NCBI GenBank assembly: GCA_002869885.2
Contig: NEWR02000004.1
Coordinates: 1 to 54,719, forward strand
Source of the DNA: Nitrospira sp. CG24C
GTDB lineage: Bacteria > Nitrospirota > Nitrospiria > Nitrospirales > Nitrospiraceae
DNA: 54,719 bases
Reading direction: 5' to 3'
Shown here: positions 18,993 to 24,430 of the stretch, one piece after another
Position numbering within the stretch: position 1 is the stretch's first letter
Layout: each line of letters opens with the position of its first letter
The notes under the pieces: generated by a model
What the model saw: only the letters and a program-made list of their open reading frames with translations
Database searches by the model: none
What the model was told of the DNA's origin: nothing
Program-made: the position numbers and the translations under genes

Positions 18993-19193
18993 ATGCAGGT
19001 GAAAATTAACGGTAAGGCAGAGGAGATTTCAGGGGGAACGGTCCTCGATCTTCTCCAGACCAAAAAGATTGAACCGCAAATGGTTGCGGTCGAGGTCAAC
19101 GACACCATGTTGGACCGGAATCACCTCGCTACCACCAGCCTAAACGACGGCGACCGGGTCGAATTCTTGTTTTACATGGGAGGCGGCCTGTGA
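18993..19193 (+). CDS. ThiS/MoaD-like sulfur carrier 1, C-terminus GGGL
   Basis: A 66-residue beta-grasp ubiquitin-like protein that starts MQVKINGKAEEISGGTVLDLL and ends FYMGGGL. ThiS-type carriers are adenylated and thiocarboxylated on a terminal glycine. Here one leucine follows the di-glycine, so trimming would be needed first. The frame is open from 18951, but the ATG at 18993 has TAGGAG 5 nt upstream and starts exactly at the fold. The stop overlaps the GTG of the cysteine synthase gene, and the codons for the Gly run (GGAGGC) form that gene's ribosome-binding site. It probably supplies sulfur for CysM here, though a role in thiamine synthesis is possible. Confidence 0.88.
   Translation: MQVKINGKAEEISGGTVLDLLQTKKIEPQMVAVEVNDTMLDRNHLATTSLNDGDRVEFLFYMGGGL
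19178..19183 (+). promoter_or_regulatory. Ribosome-binding site inside the Gly-Gly codons of carrier 1
   Basis: GGGAGG lies 6 nt before the GTG at 19190 and overlaps the ATG GGA GGC codons for Met-Gly-Gly. The same arrangement recurs at 22660-22665. Confidence 0.7.
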
Positions 19194-20119
19194 CCATGCC
19201 CCTGCATAAAGATATTACCGAACTGATTGGACGGACTCCCCTCGTCCGCCTCAACCGATTATCCCCTACAGGCGGGGCGACGATCTATGGAAAAGTTGAG
19301 TTCTTTAATCCAGGCGGAAGCGTCAAGGATCGAATCTGCCTCAATATGATCGATGAGGCGGAACGACTGGGCACATTAAAACCGGGCGGCACGATCGTGG
19401 AGCCGACCAGCGGAAACACCGGGATCGGACTGGCATTAGTCGCTGCGGTTCGTGGCTATAAGCTGATTCTCGTGATGCCGGAGAGCATGAGCATGGAGCG
19501 GGCGAGCCTCTTGTCGTCCTATGGCGCACAGCTCGTGTTGACGCCGGCCTGGGAAGGTATGAAGGGTTCGATCCGCGAGGCCGAAAGCATTATCGCGCAG
19601 AATCCTTCGTATTTTATGCCGGATCAGTTTTCAAACCCGGCTAACCCGGCGATGCATAAGAAAACCACGGCGATCGAGATTCTAGAGTCGCTCAACGGGA
19701 AGATCGATGCGTTTGTGGCGGCAGTCGGCACGGGCGGCACCATCACCGGATGCGGGGAACTGTTTAAGGAACGCAATCCCAAGGTGCTAGTGATTGCAGT
19801 TGAACCGTCCGGATCGCCGGTCCTATCCGGTGGAGAACCAGGGCCCCATAAAATTCAGGGCATCGGCGCGGGGTTCATCCCGAAAGTATTGAACCGGGCC
19901 ATTCTCGATCGGGTCATGACCGTGACCGATGACGAGGCCTATCAAACGGCCAAGCAGCTCTCGAAAAAGGAAGGCCTGTTGGTCGGCATTTCTGCAGGAG
20001 CCAACGTGTTTGCCGCGCAGAAGGTAGCCCAGGAGCTTGGGCCAGGCAAGAATGTGGTCACCATCCTCTGCGACACAGGCGAGCGGTATATCAGTATCGA
20101 GAAGTATTTCAACATTTAA
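19190..20119 (+). CDS. cysM: Cysteine synthase (O-acetyl- or O-phosphoserine sulfhydrylase)
   Basis: A fold-type II PLP enzyme of 309 residues. The PLP lysine is Lys46 in NPGGSVKDRIC, the phosphate or substrate loop is PTSGNTGIGLALVAA, and the glycine-rich PLP-phosphate loop is AVGTGGTITGCG. The family makes cysteine from an activated serine plus sulfide or a thiocarboxylated carrier. The direct coupling to a carrier gene (GTGA overlap) favours the protein-bound sulfur route known from mycobacterial CysM/CysO. The start is the GTG at 19190 with GGGAGG at 6 nt; the ATG at 19196 is less well placed. Its stop overlaps the first base of repeat C. Confidence 0.93.
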   Translation: MTMPLHKDITELIGRTPLVRLNRLSPTGGATIYGKVEFFNPGGSVKDRICLNMIDEAERLGTLKPGGTIVEPTSGNTGIGLALVAAVRGYKLILVMPESMSMERASLLSSYGAQLVLTPAWEGMKGSIREAESIIAQNPSYFMPDQFSNPANPAMHKKTTAIEILESLNGKIDAFVAAVGTGGTITGCGELFKERNPKVLVIAVEPSGSPVLSGGEPGPHKIQGIGAGFIPKVLNRAILDRVMTVTDDEAYQTAKQLSKKEGLLVGISAGANVFAAQKVAQELGPGKNVVTILCDTGERYISIEKYFNI

Positions 20120-20286
20120 GGATGCTGAAAATGGCTTCCAACTTCGTTCTCGGCTCGGGAAAATCCTCAACGTACCCCAGAGGGTACGCCTCCGGTTTTC
20201 TCTCGCCTGCGGCCTCGCTCGGTGAAGGGCGCGTCTCGGCGCGCCGGGGTTGGGCGGGTGAGAACATCGACCATTTTGAGCATCCT
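20119..20286. repeat. AGGATGCT element C, copy 1
   Basis: The ends AGGATGCTGAAAATGG and CCATTTTGAGCATCCT are inverted. The interior has an AACGTACCCCAGAGGGTACG palindrome and GTTCTCGGCTCG words shared with 24422-24543. Confidence 0.8.
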
Positions 20287-20309
20287 TTGGGATTCATAAA
20301 CTGACCGTC

Positions 20310-21122
20310 ATGGAATTTACCGAGGATCAGATAAGCAGATACAGCCGGCATATTCTGTTGCCCGAAGTCGGCGGCAAGGGGCAAAAGAAGATTGCCAAGG
20401 CTAAGATTCTCCTGGTCGGCGCGGGAGGCCTTGGCTCTCCGGCTGCCCTCTATTTGGCCGCAGCCGGTGTCGGTACCATCGGCCTCATCGACAGCGATGT
20501 GGTGGACCTGACCAATCTTCACCGGCAGATTCTTCACCATACGTCAGACGTGGGCCGCCCCAAAGTCGTCTCGGGCAAAGAAAAGATTCAGGCCTTGAAC
20601 CCCGACGTCCAGGTCTCGATGTACGAAGAGCGGCTGACGGCCGGCAATGCGCTGAAGATCGTCAGCAACTATGATATCGTCATCGACGGGGTCGATAACT
20701 TTACTGCCAAGTTCTTGATCAACGACGCCTGTTTCTTTGCCGGGAAACCGTTGGTCCACGGCGGCATCCTCCGTTTCGATGGGCGCGTGACGACCATTGT
20801 GCCGAAGCAGTCCGCCTGTTATCGTTGCATCTTCAAGACTCCGCCGCCGCCTGGGCTCGTCGCCTCCTGCCAGGAGGCAGGCGTAATCGGCGTGTTAGCC
20901 GGCATCATTGGCACGATCCAAGCCACAGAGGCCTTGAAACTCATTCTTGGAATCGGTCATCCTCTCACGAATCGATTCCTGGATTTCGATGCGAAGAAGA
21001 CGCTTTTCAGAGAAATTAAAGTGAAACGCAATCCCGACTGTGCGCTCTGCGGAACGCACCCGACGATTACCGAATTGTTTGATGACGGCGATCCGTTTGC
21101 CGGCTGTGCCGTCCGGCCGTAA
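20310..21122 (+). CDS. moeB: MoeB/ThiF/HesA-type E1-like adenylyltransferase 1
   Basis: This enzyme would adenylate the carrier's C-terminal glycine with ATP before sulfur transfer. The Rossmann motif is LLVGAGGLGSPAALYLAAAG (about 35-54), with DVVDLTNLHRQILHHT next and a structural zinc site made of CYRC and CALC pairs. The conserved SCQEAGVIGVLAGIIG segment follows. There is no rhodanese domain, so sulfur must come from another donor. The length of 270 residues is typical of MoeB/HesA. It is a close paralogue of the gene at 22990. Which carrier each E1 serves is not decidable; the symbol is by family. Confidence 0.9.
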   Translation: MEFTEDQISRYSRHILLPEVGGKGQKKIAKAKILLVGAGGLGSPAALYLAAAGVGTIGLIDSDVVDLTNLHRQILHHTSDVGRPKVVSGKEKIQALNPDVQVSMYEERLTAGNALKIVSNYDIVIDGVDNFTAKFLINDACFFAGKPLVHGGILRFDGRVTTIVPKQSACYRCIFKTPPPPGLVASCQEAGVIGVLAGIIGTIQATEALKLILGIGHPLTNRFLDFDAKKTLFREIKVKRNPDCALCGTHPTITELFDDGDPFAGCAVRP

Positions 21123-21149
21123 TTATTGACCTAGTAAGGTGGAGTCGCC

Positions 21150-22400
21150 ATGGCCACAATGAAAGCCCTAGTCTGTCGCGAGTGCGGAAAAGAATATCCA
21201 ACGAAGGCGATCCATGTCTGCGAGATGTGCTTTGGTCCTCTCGAAGTGAAATACAGCTACGAGGAGATCAAGAAGAGTATTTCCCGTAAGAAGATCCAGG
21301 ATGGCCCACACAGTATCTGGCGCTATGCCGACCTCCTGCCGGTAGAAGGACCGAATTTTCTCGGCCCTCATGCCGGAATGACCCCCCTGGTGCGCGCCAA
21401 GAACCTCGGCGCCTACCTCGGATTGGACGAGCTCTACATCAAGAATGATACGGTCAATCATCCCACGCTGTCGTTCAAAGATCGGGTCGTGGCCGTAGCC
21501 ATCACCAGGGCTCGCGAATTGGGATTTGAAACCATTGCCTGCGCCTCGACCGGCAATCTGGCCAATTCCGTCGCAGCCCATGCGGCAGCCGCAGGGATGC
21601 GCTGCTACGTGTTTATTCCGGGCGATCTGGAAGCTGCGAAGGTGCTCGGCAACTTGATCTATAAACCCAACGTGGTGGAAATCGAAGGCAACTACGATGA
21701 CGTCAATCGGCTCTGTAGCGAAATCGCCGGAGAGCATGGCTGGGCATTCGTCAATATCAACATCCGTCCCTACTATGCAGAAGGCTCGAAGACACTGGCA
21801 TTTGAAACCGTCGAGCAACTCGGCTGGCGCACGCCCGATCAAGTCGTCATCCCCATGGCGTCGGGCTCCCTGCTGACGAAAATTTGGAAGGGCCTCCACG
21901 AAATGAAGTACGTGGGATTGATCGATGAGGTCAAAACCAGGATCAATGGGGCCCAGGCCGAGGGCTGTTCGCCAATTTCCACGGCCTTCAAGGCAGGGCG
22001 CGACTTCTTCAAGCCGGTGAAGCCCAAGACCATCGCCAAGTCGCTGGCCATCGGCAATCCTGCCGACGGGTACTATGCCCTGAAGGCCACGGCGGAGAGC
22101 AAGGGCTCCATGGACATGGTAACCGACGACGAGGTCGTGGAGGGCATCAAGCTGCTTGCGCAGACGGAAGGAATCTTCGCCGAAACGGCCGGTGGTGTCA
22201 CGATCGGTGTGCTGCAAAAGATGGTGAAAAACGGCACGATCAAAAAAGGCGATCTGACCGTGGCCTATATCACCGGGAACGGCTTGAAAACCCAGGAAGC
22301 GGTGATCGATGCGGTCGGACGGCCGGTCCGTATTCAGCCAAGTTTGGTCGCGTTTGAGAAAACATTTAAAATGGGAAAGAACGGTGGTGGTGACTCATGA
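21150..22400 (+). CDS. thrC: Threonine synthase with N-terminal zinc ribbon
   Basis: A fold-type II PLP enzyme that converts O-phosphohomoserine to threonine. A zinc ribbon ([19 protein letters not shown], cysteines at 9, 12, 24 and 27) precedes the catalytic domain. The PLP lysine is Lys110 in [11 protein letters not shown], with [18 protein letters not shown] after it. The length of 416 residues is usual for this shorter class. Its stop overlaps carrier gene 2 by 4 bp, so the two are co-translated. This link to a carrier raises the possibility that it, or a complex with it, channels phosphohomoserine toward a sulfur amino acid. That is inference; plain threonine synthesis is the default. 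Confidence 0.9.
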
Positions 22401-22684
22401 TTAAAGTCCGCATTCCGACTCCGCTACGCCCGCTAACCAAGGGCCAGGGAGAAGTCGAAACGAAGGCCGCGAGCGTGCTCGATATGATCGAGGCGCTCAA
22501 TACCGCGCATCCCGGCATTAAGGATCGTCTTTGCGACGACACGGGTGAGCTTCGCCGGTTCGTGAATATTTACGTCAACGAGGAAGACATTCGATTCCTC
22601 AAGGGCAAAGAGACCTCGCTCAAAGACGGCGACGAAGTCTCGATCGTGCCCGCCATTGCGGGAGGCACATCATGCCGAATGTGA
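22397..22684 (+). CDS. MoaD/ThiS-like sulfur carrier 2, C-terminus GGTSCRM
   Basis: A 95-residue beta-grasp carrier of the MoaD/CysO size class ([45 protein letters not shown]). Five residues, TSCRM, follow the di-glycine, so the functional C-terminus must be produced by cleavage. In QbsE of Pseudomonas and HcyS of Wolinella a JAMM peptidase does this, and one is encoded at 23909. The ATG overlaps the thrC stop. The tail codons also contain the ATG of the NIL gene, with its ribosome-binding site in the Gly codons. It is likely a cysteine or homocysteine sulfur donor. Confidence 0.9.
22660..22665 (+). promoter_or_regulatory. Ribosome-binding site inside the Gly-Gly codons of carrier 2
   Basis: GGGAGG spans the GCG GGA GGC codons and lies 6 nt before the NIL gene ATG at 22672. 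This is the same spacing as for carrier 1. Confidence 0.7.
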
Positions 22685-22911
22685 AAGTGCACGTTCAGTT
22701 TCCTGAAAATAAGATCAAAGAACCGATCATCTATCAGATCGGGCATGAATTTAAGGTCGTCACAAACGTTAGACGTGCCGACGTCCGTGAAACCACCGGC
22801 TGGATGGACCTCGAACTGACCGGTGACAGTACGGAAATTGATCGGGCGATTGCAGGCCTCCGCAAAAAAGGCGTTATCGTCGACCCGATCGAATTGAATG
22901 TAGTCGAATAA
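22672..22911 (+). CDS. NIL-domain protein
   Basis: This 79-residue ferredoxin-like-fold protein matches the NIL domain usually found at the C-terminus of the MetN methionine importer, where it binds methionine. Visible parts are [20 protein letters not shown], the turn [12 protein letters not shown] and [14 protein letters not shown]. Freestanding NIL proteins sit near homocysteine-forming genes in methanogens and sulfate reducers. It overlaps carrier gene 2 by 13 nt. It may sense or bind a sulfur amino acid, or present substrate to the cluster. No cysteines are present, so it is not a redox or sulfur-transfer protein itself. Confidence 0.85.
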
Positions 22912-22915
22912 CCCG

Positions 22916-22980
22916 TTAGGGGTTAGGCGTGAGGCGTAAGGGGCAAATAGGAAAAGCCGAAAAACGTTTCACGCCTTACG
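22916..22980. repeat. GGGGTTAGGCGTGAGG short-word hairpin
   Basis: The left arm GTTAGGGGTTAGGCGTGAGG pairs loosely with TTTCACGCCTTACGGG at 22967-22982. It contains stop codons in several frames and separates the NIL gene from E1 gene 2. Confidence 0.5.
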
Positions 22981-22989
22981 GGAAAAAAC

Positions 22990-23793
22990 ATGGAACTTAC
23001 CGAACCACAAATCCAACGATACAGTCGTCAGATTATTATGAGCGACGTCGGTGGCAAGGGCCAGATGAAACTGACCAAGGCTAAAGTCTTGCTCATCGGC
23101 GCCGGTGGGCTCGGCTCGCCTGCCGGACTCTATCTCGCTGCCGCCGGTGTCGGCACCATCGGTCTGGTCGATGGCGACGTCGTCGACCTTTCGAACTTGC
23201 AGCGGCAAATTCTGCACTCCACTGCCACGGTTGGTATGCCGAAAGTGGAATCAGGCAAAAAGACCCTGTCGGCGATCAACCCGGAAATTACGATCAAGAC
23301 CTACCACCAGAACGTCGACAGCGACAATATTCTTTCGCTCATATCCGAGTTCGACATGGTCCTGGACGGATCCGACAATTTTGCGACCAGGTTTCTCGTG
23401 AACGATGCCTGCTTCTTTGCCAAGAAGACCCTTATTTCAGCCAGCATGTTCCGCTTCGAAGGCCAGCTCACGACGATCAAGCCCCATGCAGGCTATCCCT
23501 GCTACCGCTGCCTCTACCCTGAACCACCACCGGCGGGGCTCGTTCCCAATTGCCAAGAAGCCGGCGTCTTGGGCGCCCTCGCTGGGACCATGGGCATTCT
23601 TCAAGCGTCGGAAGCGATCAAGGAAATCCTTGGCATCGGAGAAACCCTGGCCGATCGCCTGCTGATCTACGACGCCCTGGAGATGAAATTCAGAAAGGTC
23701 CGTCGTCCCAAAGACCCGGCCTGCCCGCTCTGCGGTCAGAATCCGAAGATCAAAAATCTCAGCATGGACTATGCCGTCAGCTGCACGATCTAA
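22990..23793 (+). CDS. moeB: MoeB/ThiF/HesA-type E1-like adenylyltransferase 2
   Basis: This is a paralogue of the protein at 20310, of near-equal length (267 residues) and domain order. The Rossmann motif is LLIGAGGLGSPAGLYLAAAG, then DVVDLSNLQRQILHST, zinc pairs CYRC and CPLC, and NCQEAGVLGALAGTMGI. It would activate a carrier C-terminal glycine with ATP. The two E1 genes and two carriers invite a one-to-one pairing; proximity suggests this one serves the TSCRM-tailed carrier. The tail DYAVSCTI is unlike that of the first E1 (DPFAGCAVRP), though both carry a late cysteine that could hold sulfur or join the carrier by thioester. Confidence 0.9.
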   Translation: MELTEPQIQRYSRQIIMSDVGGKGQMKLTKAKVLLIGAGGLGSPAGLYLAAAGVGTIGLVDGDVVDLSNLQRQILHSTATVGMPKVESGKKTLSAINPEITIKTYHQNVDSDNILSLISEFDMVLDGSDNFATRFLVNDACFFAKKTLISASMFRFEGQLTTIKPHAGYPCYRCLYPEPPPAGLVPNCQEAGVLGALAGTMGILQASEAIKEILGIGETLADRLLIYDALEMKFRKVRRPKDPACPLCGQNPKIKNLSMDYAVSCTI

Positions 23794-23796
23794 TGA

Positions 23797-23906
23797 AGCC
23801 AGGTCTTAAAGTCAAACGTCGTCAAGTCCTAAAGTCTCCGTAATGATCGTTCATATTGAAAAGACCTTATGACTTTCGAACTTTAAGACTTTTAGACTTT
23901 TAAGCC
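23797..23906. repeat. AAAGTC/GACTTT short-word hairpin
   Basis: Left words TCTTAAAGTC, CAAGTCCTAAAGTC are mirrored by right words GACTTTCGAACTTTAAGACT and TTTTAGACTTTTAAG. The same design with other spacing occurs at 34873-34945. Confidence 0.6.
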
Positions 23907-23908
23907 CG

Positions 23909-24430
23909 ATGACAACTCCCCTTCTCATCCCTCAATCGATCCTCGACGACATGGTGGCCCACGCTAGGGAACTCGATCCCTATGAGTGTTGTGGGCTCTT
24001 GGCCGGAATCAACGGAGCCGTTACCCATGTCTATCGGATCAAAAATATCGTAGCGCTTGAAGGAGCTGAGAAACTGTCGTCCTTCGATCCGGCAAAAGCT
24101 GCACACTTGGAACGGCTGTCGCCGACTGAACGAGCCGAGATCGCCTTCGTGATGGATATGCAGGATTTTTCCGTTGCGAAGAAGGATATTCGAAATAAAG
24201 GGCTCGACCTGCAAGTGGTCTACCACTCCCATCCCCACGACCCGGCACGCCCCTCCATCACCGATATCAAGATTGCCACCGACTACGAAGAAATCTGGCC
24301 AAAGATCAACCTACCAATCCCTGCCTACCTACTCATCTCCCTCATGGAGAAATCGAAACCGGATATTCGCGGATACTGGATCAAGGGTGGGATGGTCACG
24401 CAAGCGCACATCACAGCTACAGGCTTGTGA
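23909..24430 (+). CDS. mec: JAMM/MPN+ metalloprotease (Mec+-like)
   Basis: A zinc peptidase of the JAMM family with the glutamate in YECCGLL (Glu26) and the metal ligands in HSHPHDPARPSITD (His106, His108, Ser116, Asp119). In mycobacteria Mec+ releases cysteine from the CysO-cysteine adduct, and in QbsD/HcyD systems the enzyme trims the carrier C-terminus. Here both carriers have post-di-glycine residues, so trimming, adduct release or both are plausible. It is 173 residues, slightly longer than the minimal family. It is the last gene of the cluster. Confidence 0.9.
   Translation: MTTPLLIPQSILDDMVAHARELDPYECCGLLAGINGAVTHVYRIKNIVALEGAEKLSSFDPAKAAHLERLSPTERAEIAFVMDMQDFSVAKKDIRNKGLDLQVVYHSHPHDPARPSITDIKIATDYEEIWPKINLPIPAYLLISLMEKSKPDIRGYWIKGGMVTQAHITATGL

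Follow-up and report, generated by a model that had tools for sequence, protein, structure and literature searches.

An eight-gene cluster of Nitrospira that most likely makes cysteine and homocysteine via two small ubiquitin-like carriers that probably need trimming

Regarding routes to homocysteine, the precursor of methionine, the MetM/MetO route is said to have been reported by Hasebe et al. 2024 (AEM 90:e01247-24), and Krishnamoorthy and Begley reportedly described in 2011 the HcyS/HcyD/HcyF system of Wolinella, in which a trimmed carrier, a JAMM peptidase and an E1 lead to homocysteine. In the MetM/MetO system of Streptomyces, reported in 2024, homocysteine is formed via O-phosphohomoserine (OPH) by a ThrC-like enzyme with an adjacent carrier, and, as far as the available text of the source goes, a SAM riboswitch lies upstream of MetM in S. 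albulus and none at the Microcystis homologue (PMC12172450). According to the same text, a MetM homologue from a cyanobacterium both produced threonine and deaminated it in vitro, and its high expression brought no rise in methionine (PMC12172450). In 2018, at least one further homocysteine pathway was considered still to be found, and Aquifex aeolicus was described, in the available part of that paper, as having no known route (PMC5764234). An earlier note on the present DNA, based on the sequence alone, named QbsE, HcyS and CysO as precedents and missed the closest one, MetM/MetO, as described in the accessible portion of the source (PMC12172450).

The DNA in the present study is a stretch of 54,719 nt from Nitrospira sp. 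CG24C (GCA_002869885.2, contig NEWR02000004.1), hereafter the window, the proteins of which were assigned to domains with Pfam and NCBIfam profiles. Eight open frames on one strand at 18993-24430 encode, in this order, a ThiS-like carrier, CysK, E1a, ThrC2, a MoaD-like carrier, an NIL protein, E1b and a JAMM peptidase (Table 1); this sulfur-transfer cluster agrees in order and span with the earlier note, which had also recognised that both carriers extend beyond the di-glycine. The MoaD-like carrier gene overlaps the ThrC2 gene by 4 nt and the NIL gene by 13 nt, and the rhodanese and TusA families had no match in Pfam or NCBIfam among the ten window proteins scanned. This arrangement is not due to chance because the trio of ThrC2, carrier and NIL protein recurs throughout the phylum Nitrospirota. 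The co-localisation in related genomes, the absence of which the note had named as a refutation, holds.

Table 1. Genes of the cluster, with coordinates in the window and profile matches.
Feature	Position	Strand	Profile match or remark
ThiS-like sulfur carrier, 66 aa, C-terminus MGGGL	18993..19193	+	PF02597; TIGR01683 above cut-off
Cysteine synthase, CysK type	19190..20119	+	TIGR01139 above cut-off; 4-nt overlap with ThiS-like carrier gene
E1a, MoeB/ThiF-like adenylyltransferase, without rhodanese domain	20310..21122	+	PF00899 only
ThrC2, candidate MetM-like homocysteine synthase, threonine-synthase paralogue	21150..22400	+	TIGR00260 above cut-off
MoaD-like (MetO/CysO-like) sulfur carrier, 95 aa, C-terminus AGGTSCRM	22397..22684	+	PF02597; TIGR01687 barely above cut-off
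NIL-domain protein, 79 aa, no cysteine	22672..22911	+	PF09383, 56.1 bits vs cut-off 24
E1b, MoeB/ThiF-like adenylyltransferase, without rhodanese domain	22990..23793	+	PF00899 only
JAMM (JAB1/MPN) metallopeptidase, intact HSHPHDPARPSITD motif	23909..24430	+	PF14464 (Prok-JAB)

The locus may be regarded as two parallel protein-thiocarboxylate relay lines with one JAMM peptidase common to both. In the line to homocysteine, E1b would activate the MoaD-like carrier, which would hand its sulfur to ThrC2, an enzyme of the MetM type expected to turn OPH into homocysteine, not threonine, before methylation by MetH; we assign a probability of roughly 0.84 to this conversion of OPH into homocysteine with sulfur donated by the carrier. 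In the line to cysteine, which we consider fairly likely, E1a would activate the ThiS-like carrier and the sulfur would pass to CysK. The JAMM peptidase quite likely trims the carriers, and would do so first by cutting off the residues beyond the di-glycine so that an E1 can adenylate the terminal glycine; it may also free a carrier-amino-acid adduct, like Mec+ on CysO-cysteine. The NIL protein would be dedicated to the carrier/E1b step, and the foremost role for it, suggested tentatively, is that of a methionine or homocysteine sensor.

ThrC2 might instead act as a further threonine synthase, with or without threonine deaminase activity, the carriers serving thiamine, molybdopterin or tRNA thiolation. 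The NCBIfam thrC model (TIGR00260) labels both ThrC2 (296 bits) and the canonical ThrC, or ThrC1 (325.9 bits), above its cut-off of 167 bits and does not tell them apart, and in the available text of the source the cyanobacterial homologue is both a threonine synthase and a threonine deaminase in vitro (PMC12172450). Threonine synthases are the closest folds to the predicted structure of ThrC2. However, 40 alignment columns separate ThrC2 (n=121) from ThrC1 (n=28), and the ThrC2-specific residues are nearly all close to fixed among the 121 sequences; the motifs PTGSFKDRG, STGNTSAS, GNAGN and IRIGNPASW, carried by 19 to 28 ThrC1 sequences from Nitrospirota, are replaced in ThrC2, in which the catalytic Lys is retained in 121 of 121. 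A canonical ThrC is encoded elsewhere in the genome, clustered with frames for aspartate kinase, an ApgM-type protein, homoserine dehydrogenase and citramalate synthase; therefore, ThrC2 is a second copy, and its role as the sole threonine synthase of the genome is ruled out. The citramalate synthase scores above its cut-off, so that isoleucine would need no threonine deaminase. Thiamine and molybdopterin were rejected as the purpose of the carriers because another ThiS lies beside thiG and two more ThiS-family proteins are present in the genome. Together with the SAM riboswitches of relatives and the mutual exclusion with DUF39 described below, both of which point to methionine, these findings render this alternative very unlikely. 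In Nonomuraea, which served as a stand-in for S. albulus MetM in the sequence comparison (both are Actinomycetes), the ThrC2 homologue agrees with that of the window at 35 of the 40 diagnostic columns and is 51.8% identical to it overall, and the order of SAM riboswitch, ThrC2 and carrier is as described for Streptomyces metM-metO.

The genome, which is 94% complete, contains a MetH-type frame of 1252 aa (PF02574). MetX (at 1e-40) and MetA/HTS were absent from it, and PF01053 gave no strong match and four partial ones (best 33 bits), by which MetX or MetA with MetY was rejected as the source of homocysteine; the DUF39 route was rejected on zero PF01837 matches in the same 94% complete genome. 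In the phylum, 124 of 148 genomes possess ThrC2, with stop codons inside the matched stretch in nine of these 124 matches. PF01053 (at 1e-20) was found in 16 of the 24 genomes without ThrC2 and DUF39 in 6 others, which covers 22 of the 24, the two genomes with none of the three being G018 (99% complete) and G046 (75%). Where ThrC2 is present, PF01053 occurs in 34 genomes and DUF39 in none, and the exclusion between ThrC2 and the alternative routes is significant over the 148 genomes when relatedness is ignored (Fisher p 3.4e-9). Among 41 phylum loci, 21 also hold hom, thrC1, apgM or lysC and 19 others hold the ThiS-like carrier with CysK, and never both. Which genes are present and which are missing, their operon context and the SAM riboswitches of relatives lend strong support to the homocysteine branch from OPH, which the earlier note had put forward as its own inference; the two genomes with none of the three and the 34 with both ThrC2 and PF01053 weigh against it.

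Outside the phylum, some ThrC2 operons are under SAM-riboswitch control: a scan of 865 kb from 59 of the ThrC2 loci surveyed, most of them outside Nitrospirota, gave 24 SAM riboswitches (RF00162) at 24 loci, each immediately upstream of the ThrC2 operon. RF00162 was found neither in the window nor in the 11 other phylum loci scanned; a SAM riboswitch was not taken as defining MetM because the Microcystis homologue is also without one. PF01053 is present in 16 of 50 genomes with ThrC2, most of them from other phyla, and had no match at 1e-20 in any of the five Aquificota genomes with ThrC2 (L114, a MAG titled Aquifex aeolicus, L119, L124, L135 and L153).

The distribution also bears on the alternative that free sulfide or another donor supplies the sulfur when ThrC2 turns OPH into homocysteine, the carrier, E1 and JAMM peptidase being a separate co-transcribed protein-modification system like SAMP/Urm1. 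Such a separation would fit the 13 of 80 loci whose ThrC2 lacks a carrier gene within 1.5 kb, which include all 7 of Poribacteria and 3 of 5 of Aquificota (L114, a 4.2-kb contig, L119 and L135), and the scores of the carrier, E1s and JAMM peptidase against the SAMP1, SAMP E1 and desampylase models, each of which is below the cut-off. However, a carrier does lie at most 1.5 kb from ThrC2 in 67 of the 80 loci, under more than a dozen phylum-level names, and in 86 of 105 ThrC2-carrier pairs the distance is 50 nt or less, including 20 overlaps of 4 nt, some gaps being understated by the extension of frames to the first start codon. Moreover, the accessible part of the report presents MetO as a sulfur carrier next to MetM (PMC12172450), and we consider a donor other than the carrier highly improbable.

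Regarding the carriers, for which the nearest solved structures to the MoaD-like one are 4n6e and CysO 3dwg, 103 MoaD-like sequences with the glycine motif were compared between the window and its relatives, and 72 are capped, 26 stop exactly at GG and 5 continue in frame into an NIL domain. This count left out five carriers, namely two at contig ends (L149 and L167), one weak match (L111), one without GG (L125) and one that ends at GG after a variant motif (L168). ThiS-like carriers end in GGG plus at least one residue in 29 of 29 cases, with one residue after the three glycines in the window. That each carrier needs trimming is plausible because the JAMM motif is intact and in-frame carrier-NIL fusions exist; the zinc motif HxHx7SxxD (HSHPHDPARPSITD) is kept in 43 of 43 JAMM frames, including that of the window. 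Single-sequence folding of one such fusion (L058) gave a pLDDT of 42 and the model was set aside. Against obligatory trimming stand the 26 capless MoaD-like carriers and the lack of association between cap and JAMM peptidase in the same locus, the latter accompanying 29 of the 72 capped and 8 of the 26 uncapped carriers. The caps may be neutral read-through around the overlapping start codon of the next gene, with the JAMM peptidase only freeing carrier-cysteine or carrier-homocysteine adducts in the manner of Mec+; the 72 caps have 53 different sequences and are not conserved, that of the window MoaD-like carrier overlaps the NIL start codon, and CysO, in the available text, stops at its GG motif while Mec+ cleaves its cysteine adduct (PMC3227635). 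This possibility, which is compatible with the main reading, appears unlikely given the extra residue kept in every ThiS-like carrier and the five NIL fusions, for which E1 activation would be impossible without cleavage, and even a neutral cap would require a protease.

In a tree of 85 E1s, 28 CysK-side E1s including window E1a form one clade (support 0.98), outside which a 29th (L111) falls, so that all 29 together are not a clean clade; E1b stands apart from the E1a clade in a group of its own (support 0.53). The genome has four PALP matches, of which the window CysK alone is a cysteine synthase. CysE was found, and thus its absence cannot serve as proof that CysK uses O-phosphoserine; the substrates of CysK may be no more than O-acetylserine and sulfide. 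Methionine is the ligand of the NIL domain of MetN, and the NIL protein matched the MetN2 NIL domain 2qsw weakly (E 0.015); NIL domains are fused to the carrier in five loci and to E1b in one. It is conceivable, if rather doubtful as a whole, that the carriers are precursors locked by a cap or an NIL domain after the di-glycine, as ubiquitin is made as fusions, that one JAMM peptidase unlocks those for cysteine and homocysteine, that a methionine-binding NIL protein restrains E1b or the carrier by feedback and sets the split of OPH between threonine and methionine, and that the same MetM core accounts for the homocysteine gap in Aquificota.

The core of the locus corresponds to the MetM/MetO route, so its chemistry is already known. 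The near-constant NIL partner, the carrier-NIL and NIL-E1 fusions, the non-conserved caps beside a JAMM peptidase, the putative twin cysteine line, the probable phylum-wide role and a candidate answer to the stated homocysteine gap in Aquifex are new; a literature search, to which most subscription papers were out of reach, returned no earlier report of this arrangement. None of the enzymes known to form homocysteine is apparent in this bacterium, and its core gene pair recurs in many further phyla of bacteria. The NCBIfam label "threonine synthase" on ThrC2-type enzymes misleads predictions of auxotrophy. The NIL protein and JAMM peptidase also allow a direct test of whether an amino-acid branch point is controlled by a ubiquitin-like precursor and its protease.

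Among known systems, the locus resembles HcyS/HcyD/HcyF in combining a carrier with a trimmed C-terminus (trimming being predicted here), a JAMM peptidase, E1 activation and homocysteine, whereas that route reportedly uses a MetY-type enzyme on O-acetylhomoserine and the present genome has no MetX or strong PF01053 match. As far as the available texts of the sources go, an NIL-domain protein is shared with the DUF39/NIL-ferredoxin/COG2122 route to homocysteine, in contrast to which DUF39 is absent here, NIL is the only domain found in the 79-aa protein, and the precursor would be homoserine phosphate, not aspartate semialdehyde (PMC5764234). Class 4c operons (Iyer et al., 2006) likewise combine ThiS/MoaD, E1 and JAB with a predicted sulfur transfer to cysteine synthase, but their E1 carries a rhodanese domain, which E1a and E1b do not, and neither "threonine synthase" nor "NIL domain" is among the terms in the accessible text (PMC1779556). 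The mycobacterial CysO/CysM/Mec+ system also unites a carrier thiocarboxylate, a PLP synthase and a peptidase, although CysO, in the part of the paper available, ends at GG and serves cysteine, whereas the CysO-like carrier here is tied to ThrC2 and the ThiS-like one to CysK (PMC3227635). Unlike MetM/MetO, the Nitrospirota pair has an NIL protein, usually an E1 and a JAMM peptidase in the locus and usually a capped carrier, with no RF00162 at the 12 phylum loci scanned and a ThiS-like carrier and CysK line in 19 of 41; like the Streptomyces pair, as described in the available text, it consists of a ThrC-like enzyme and an adjoining MoaD-like carrier, here with a predicted OPH route, and many of its relatives have a SAM riboswitch upstream.

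The cluster of carriers, E1s, CysK, threonine synthase, NIL protein (PF09383) and JAMM peptidase claimed by the earlier note at 18993-24430 was borne out by eight genes with family support, which fill this interval on one strand. The extension past the di-glycine proposed for both carriers was also found, with the C-termini reading MGGGL in the ThiS-like and AGGTSCRM in the MoaD-like carrier. The ThiS-like gene and cysK share 4 nt, provided that cysK starts at GTG; a 4-nt overlap also links thrC2, the threonine synthase paralogue, to the MoaD-like gene, which itself runs 13 nt into the NIL gene. Because of these overlaps, each carrier was paired with one PLP enzyme.

Coordinates of the features (L, loci; G, genomes; E1a and E1b, E1s on the CysK and ThrC2 sides; unprefixed positions refer to the window)
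Feature	Location	Strand	Basis
Cluster, in order: ThiS-like carrier, CysK, E1a, ThrC2, MoaD-like carrier, NIL protein, E1b, JAMM	18993-24430	same strand	each with a family match
Thiamine ThiS carrier	L002:1468-1716; thiG neighbourhood L010 (G000:C2:334000-343000)	-	capped C-terminus
NIL-E1b fusion, NIL at N-terminus	L054:10703-11767	+	domain matches
DnaB frame with intein-like stretch	L012:7311-9299	-	model scores

The genome itself (2.99 Mb, 94% complete) holds four PALP enzymes, namely CysK and ThrC2 in the cluster, TrpB, and a canonical ThrC (ThrC1), and ThrC2 was therefore regarded as a second copy since the canonical enzyme lies elsewhere (amid frames that are aspartate kinase, ApgM, homoserine dehydrogenase and citramalate synthase by model scores, ApgM being below the cut-off of the "proposed homoserine kinase" model). 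When 121 ThrC2 sequences (41 of the phylum Nitrospirota, 79 from a genome scan and one from Nonomuraea, with L089 left out as a duplicate of the identical L088) were compared with 28 ThrC1, the catalytic lysine was kept and the two groups differed at 40 columns, almost all of them nearly invariant. The predicted ThrC2 fold (pLDDT 83) has threonine synthases as its nearest structures, the first match giving a TM-score of 0.70 by query length and an rmsd of 12. As a much less likely alternative, ThrC2 could act as a threonine synthase/deaminase, in view of a cyanobacterial homologue with both activities, for which a full MetM role is doubted in PMC12172450.

Regarding homocysteine synthesis, searches of the same genome gave no match to MetX at 1e-40, to MetA/HTS, to DUF39 or to PF01053 at 1e-20, and four partial PF01053 matches (best 33 bits, two above the family cut-off, frames of 391-408 aa); therefore, no known homocysteine synthase was found in it. 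CysE and a MetH-type frame were present. O-phosphohomoserine (OPH) would be the sole activated homoserine with a plausible supply, the ApgM-type protein being the putative kinase.

A profile of matches placed ThrC2, counted at >500 bits plus one 143-residue fragment with 73% identity in G008, in 124 of 148 genomes of the phylum. Among the 24 without it, which belong to six families (f8, f10, f13, f15, f25 and f1) with a substitute route in five, PF01053 (1e-20) was found in 16 and DUF39 in six others; G018 and G046 had none of the three. The ThrC2 genomes had PF01053 in 34 and DUF39 in 0 (Fisher p = 3.4e-9 for either alternative route versus ThrC2, with genomes counted regardless of kinship), and MetX matched in 2/148, both without ThrC2. 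The absence of all three routes from G018, a same-family genome that is 99% complete, may reflect an assembly gap or another route. Stop codons interrupt the ThrC2 match in nine of the 124 (G021, G030, G045, G049, G054, G069, G067, G090 and G132), TAG in 6/9, perhaps because the match overruns the true end or through recoding. Separately, a replicative helicase DnaB frame is split by a stretch scoring against intein-containing proteins.

The survey of neighbourhoods suggested by the earlier note, performed on 40 loci spread over families plus the window, upheld the co-localization, with a MoaD-like carrier in 40/41 and NIL, separate or fused, in 40/41. In 38 loci NIL has a gene to itself; L058 encodes it fused with the carrier, and L054 as the N-terminal part of E1b. 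L073 has neither carrier nor NIL, and its ThrC2 ends ~500 bases from the contig end. E1 was present in 28/41 and JAMM in 27/41. Two arrangements were observed, one with hom, thrC1, apgM or lysC in the same locus (21/41) and one with the ThiS-like carrier and CysK (19/41), never both (0/41). The fullest form of the first, hom-E1-JAMM-thrC2-carrier-NIL-thrC1-apgM-lysC (L081 and L072), places ThrC2 within an aspartate-family operon. The second has fixed slots for two E1s; one clade (support 0.98) holds 28 CysK-side E1s, a further one of L111 falling outside, and their ThrC2-side partners form one group with weak support (0.53).

Scanning one genome per species yielded at least 584 relatives, of which the best 80, mostly MAGs, were kept. 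Approximately 22 of these carry Nitrospirota-type names, and the others include Omnitrophota, Methylomirabilota, Elusimicrobia, Aquificota, Nitrospinota, Poribacteria, Binatia, Planctomycetota, Verrucomicrobiota, Chloroflexi, a cyanobacterium, Actinomycetes, Mariprofundus, and more. Among the best 80, 67 have a carrier no more than 1.5 kb from ThrC2; the locus includes NIL in 44, CysK in 33, E1 in 34 and JAMM in 17, many contigs being short; PF01053 (1e-20) occurred in 16 of the 50 genomes searched, whose completeness was not given. An Rfam search covering 865,348 bases in 59 of these 80 loci (all 21 omitted ones have Nitrospirota-type names) returned 24 matches to the SAM riboswitch RF00162, one each in 24 loci, all on the coding strand directly upstream of the ThrC2 operon. 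The first recognized gene is ThrC2 in 19, NIL in three and E1 in two, and NIL itself was tied to methionine because NIL-first operons stand under the riboswitch. The listed ThrC2 frame begins inside the riboswitch in three loci, an artefact of first-start-codon choice. RF00162 was absent from the window and 11 other loci of the phylum, and L063 has a marginal SAM-II match ~2.5 kb upstream. All seven Poribacteria loci (L130, L132, L138, L140, L142, L143 and L145) have ThrC2, no carrier within 1.5 kb, and no SAM riboswitch by Rfam.

Of 103 MoaD-like carriers with the glycine motif, 72 are capped, 26 end at GG and five are fused in frame to NIL directly after the di-glycine (L058, L092, L093, L110 and L112). 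The caps comprise 53 different sequences of 1 to 21 residues. No separate NIL gene occurs in the loci of the five fusions; L092 is cut by a contig end, and in the four whole fusions ThiS and NIL both score above the Pfam cut-off. All 29 ThiS-like carriers have GGG followed by at least one residue. The cap sequence is thus free, and the simplest need common to the carriers would be cleavage after GG. JAMM accompanies 29/72 capped, 8/26 GG-ending and 4/5 fused carriers, and cap presence did not correlate with a nearby JAMM, counted at the locus only. The thiamine ThiS beside thiG in the genome of the window likewise extends past its glycines (GGGSSTDYSVRVS), and 3/5 of the ThiS-family proteins there are capped.

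In the proposed pathway, JAMM would remove the cap, and E1, judging from its family, would adenylate the carrier for thiocarboxylation. ThrC2 would then eliminate phosphate from OPH, allowing the carrier sulfur to join the gamma carbon, and the adduct would be hydrolyzed, perhaps by JAMM, as in PMC3227635, where the CysO-cysteine adduct is cleaved by its peptidase. The resulting homocysteine would be methylated by MetH, for which a MetH-type gene is present.

The thiocarboxylate of MetO, together with MetM, reportedly turns OPH into homocysteine. PMC12172450 describes the homocysteine synthase MetM from Streptomyces (Hasebe et al. 2024), mentions the metO carrier, and notes MetM homologues in cyanobacteria. 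The locus of Nonomuraea combines ThrC2 with a SAM riboswitch and a carrier that stops exactly at GG; neither NIL nor E1 nor JAMM was recognized within 4 kb. On these grounds, ThrC2 and the MoaD-like carrier were classed as MetM/MetO-like, and the whole locus as a new form.
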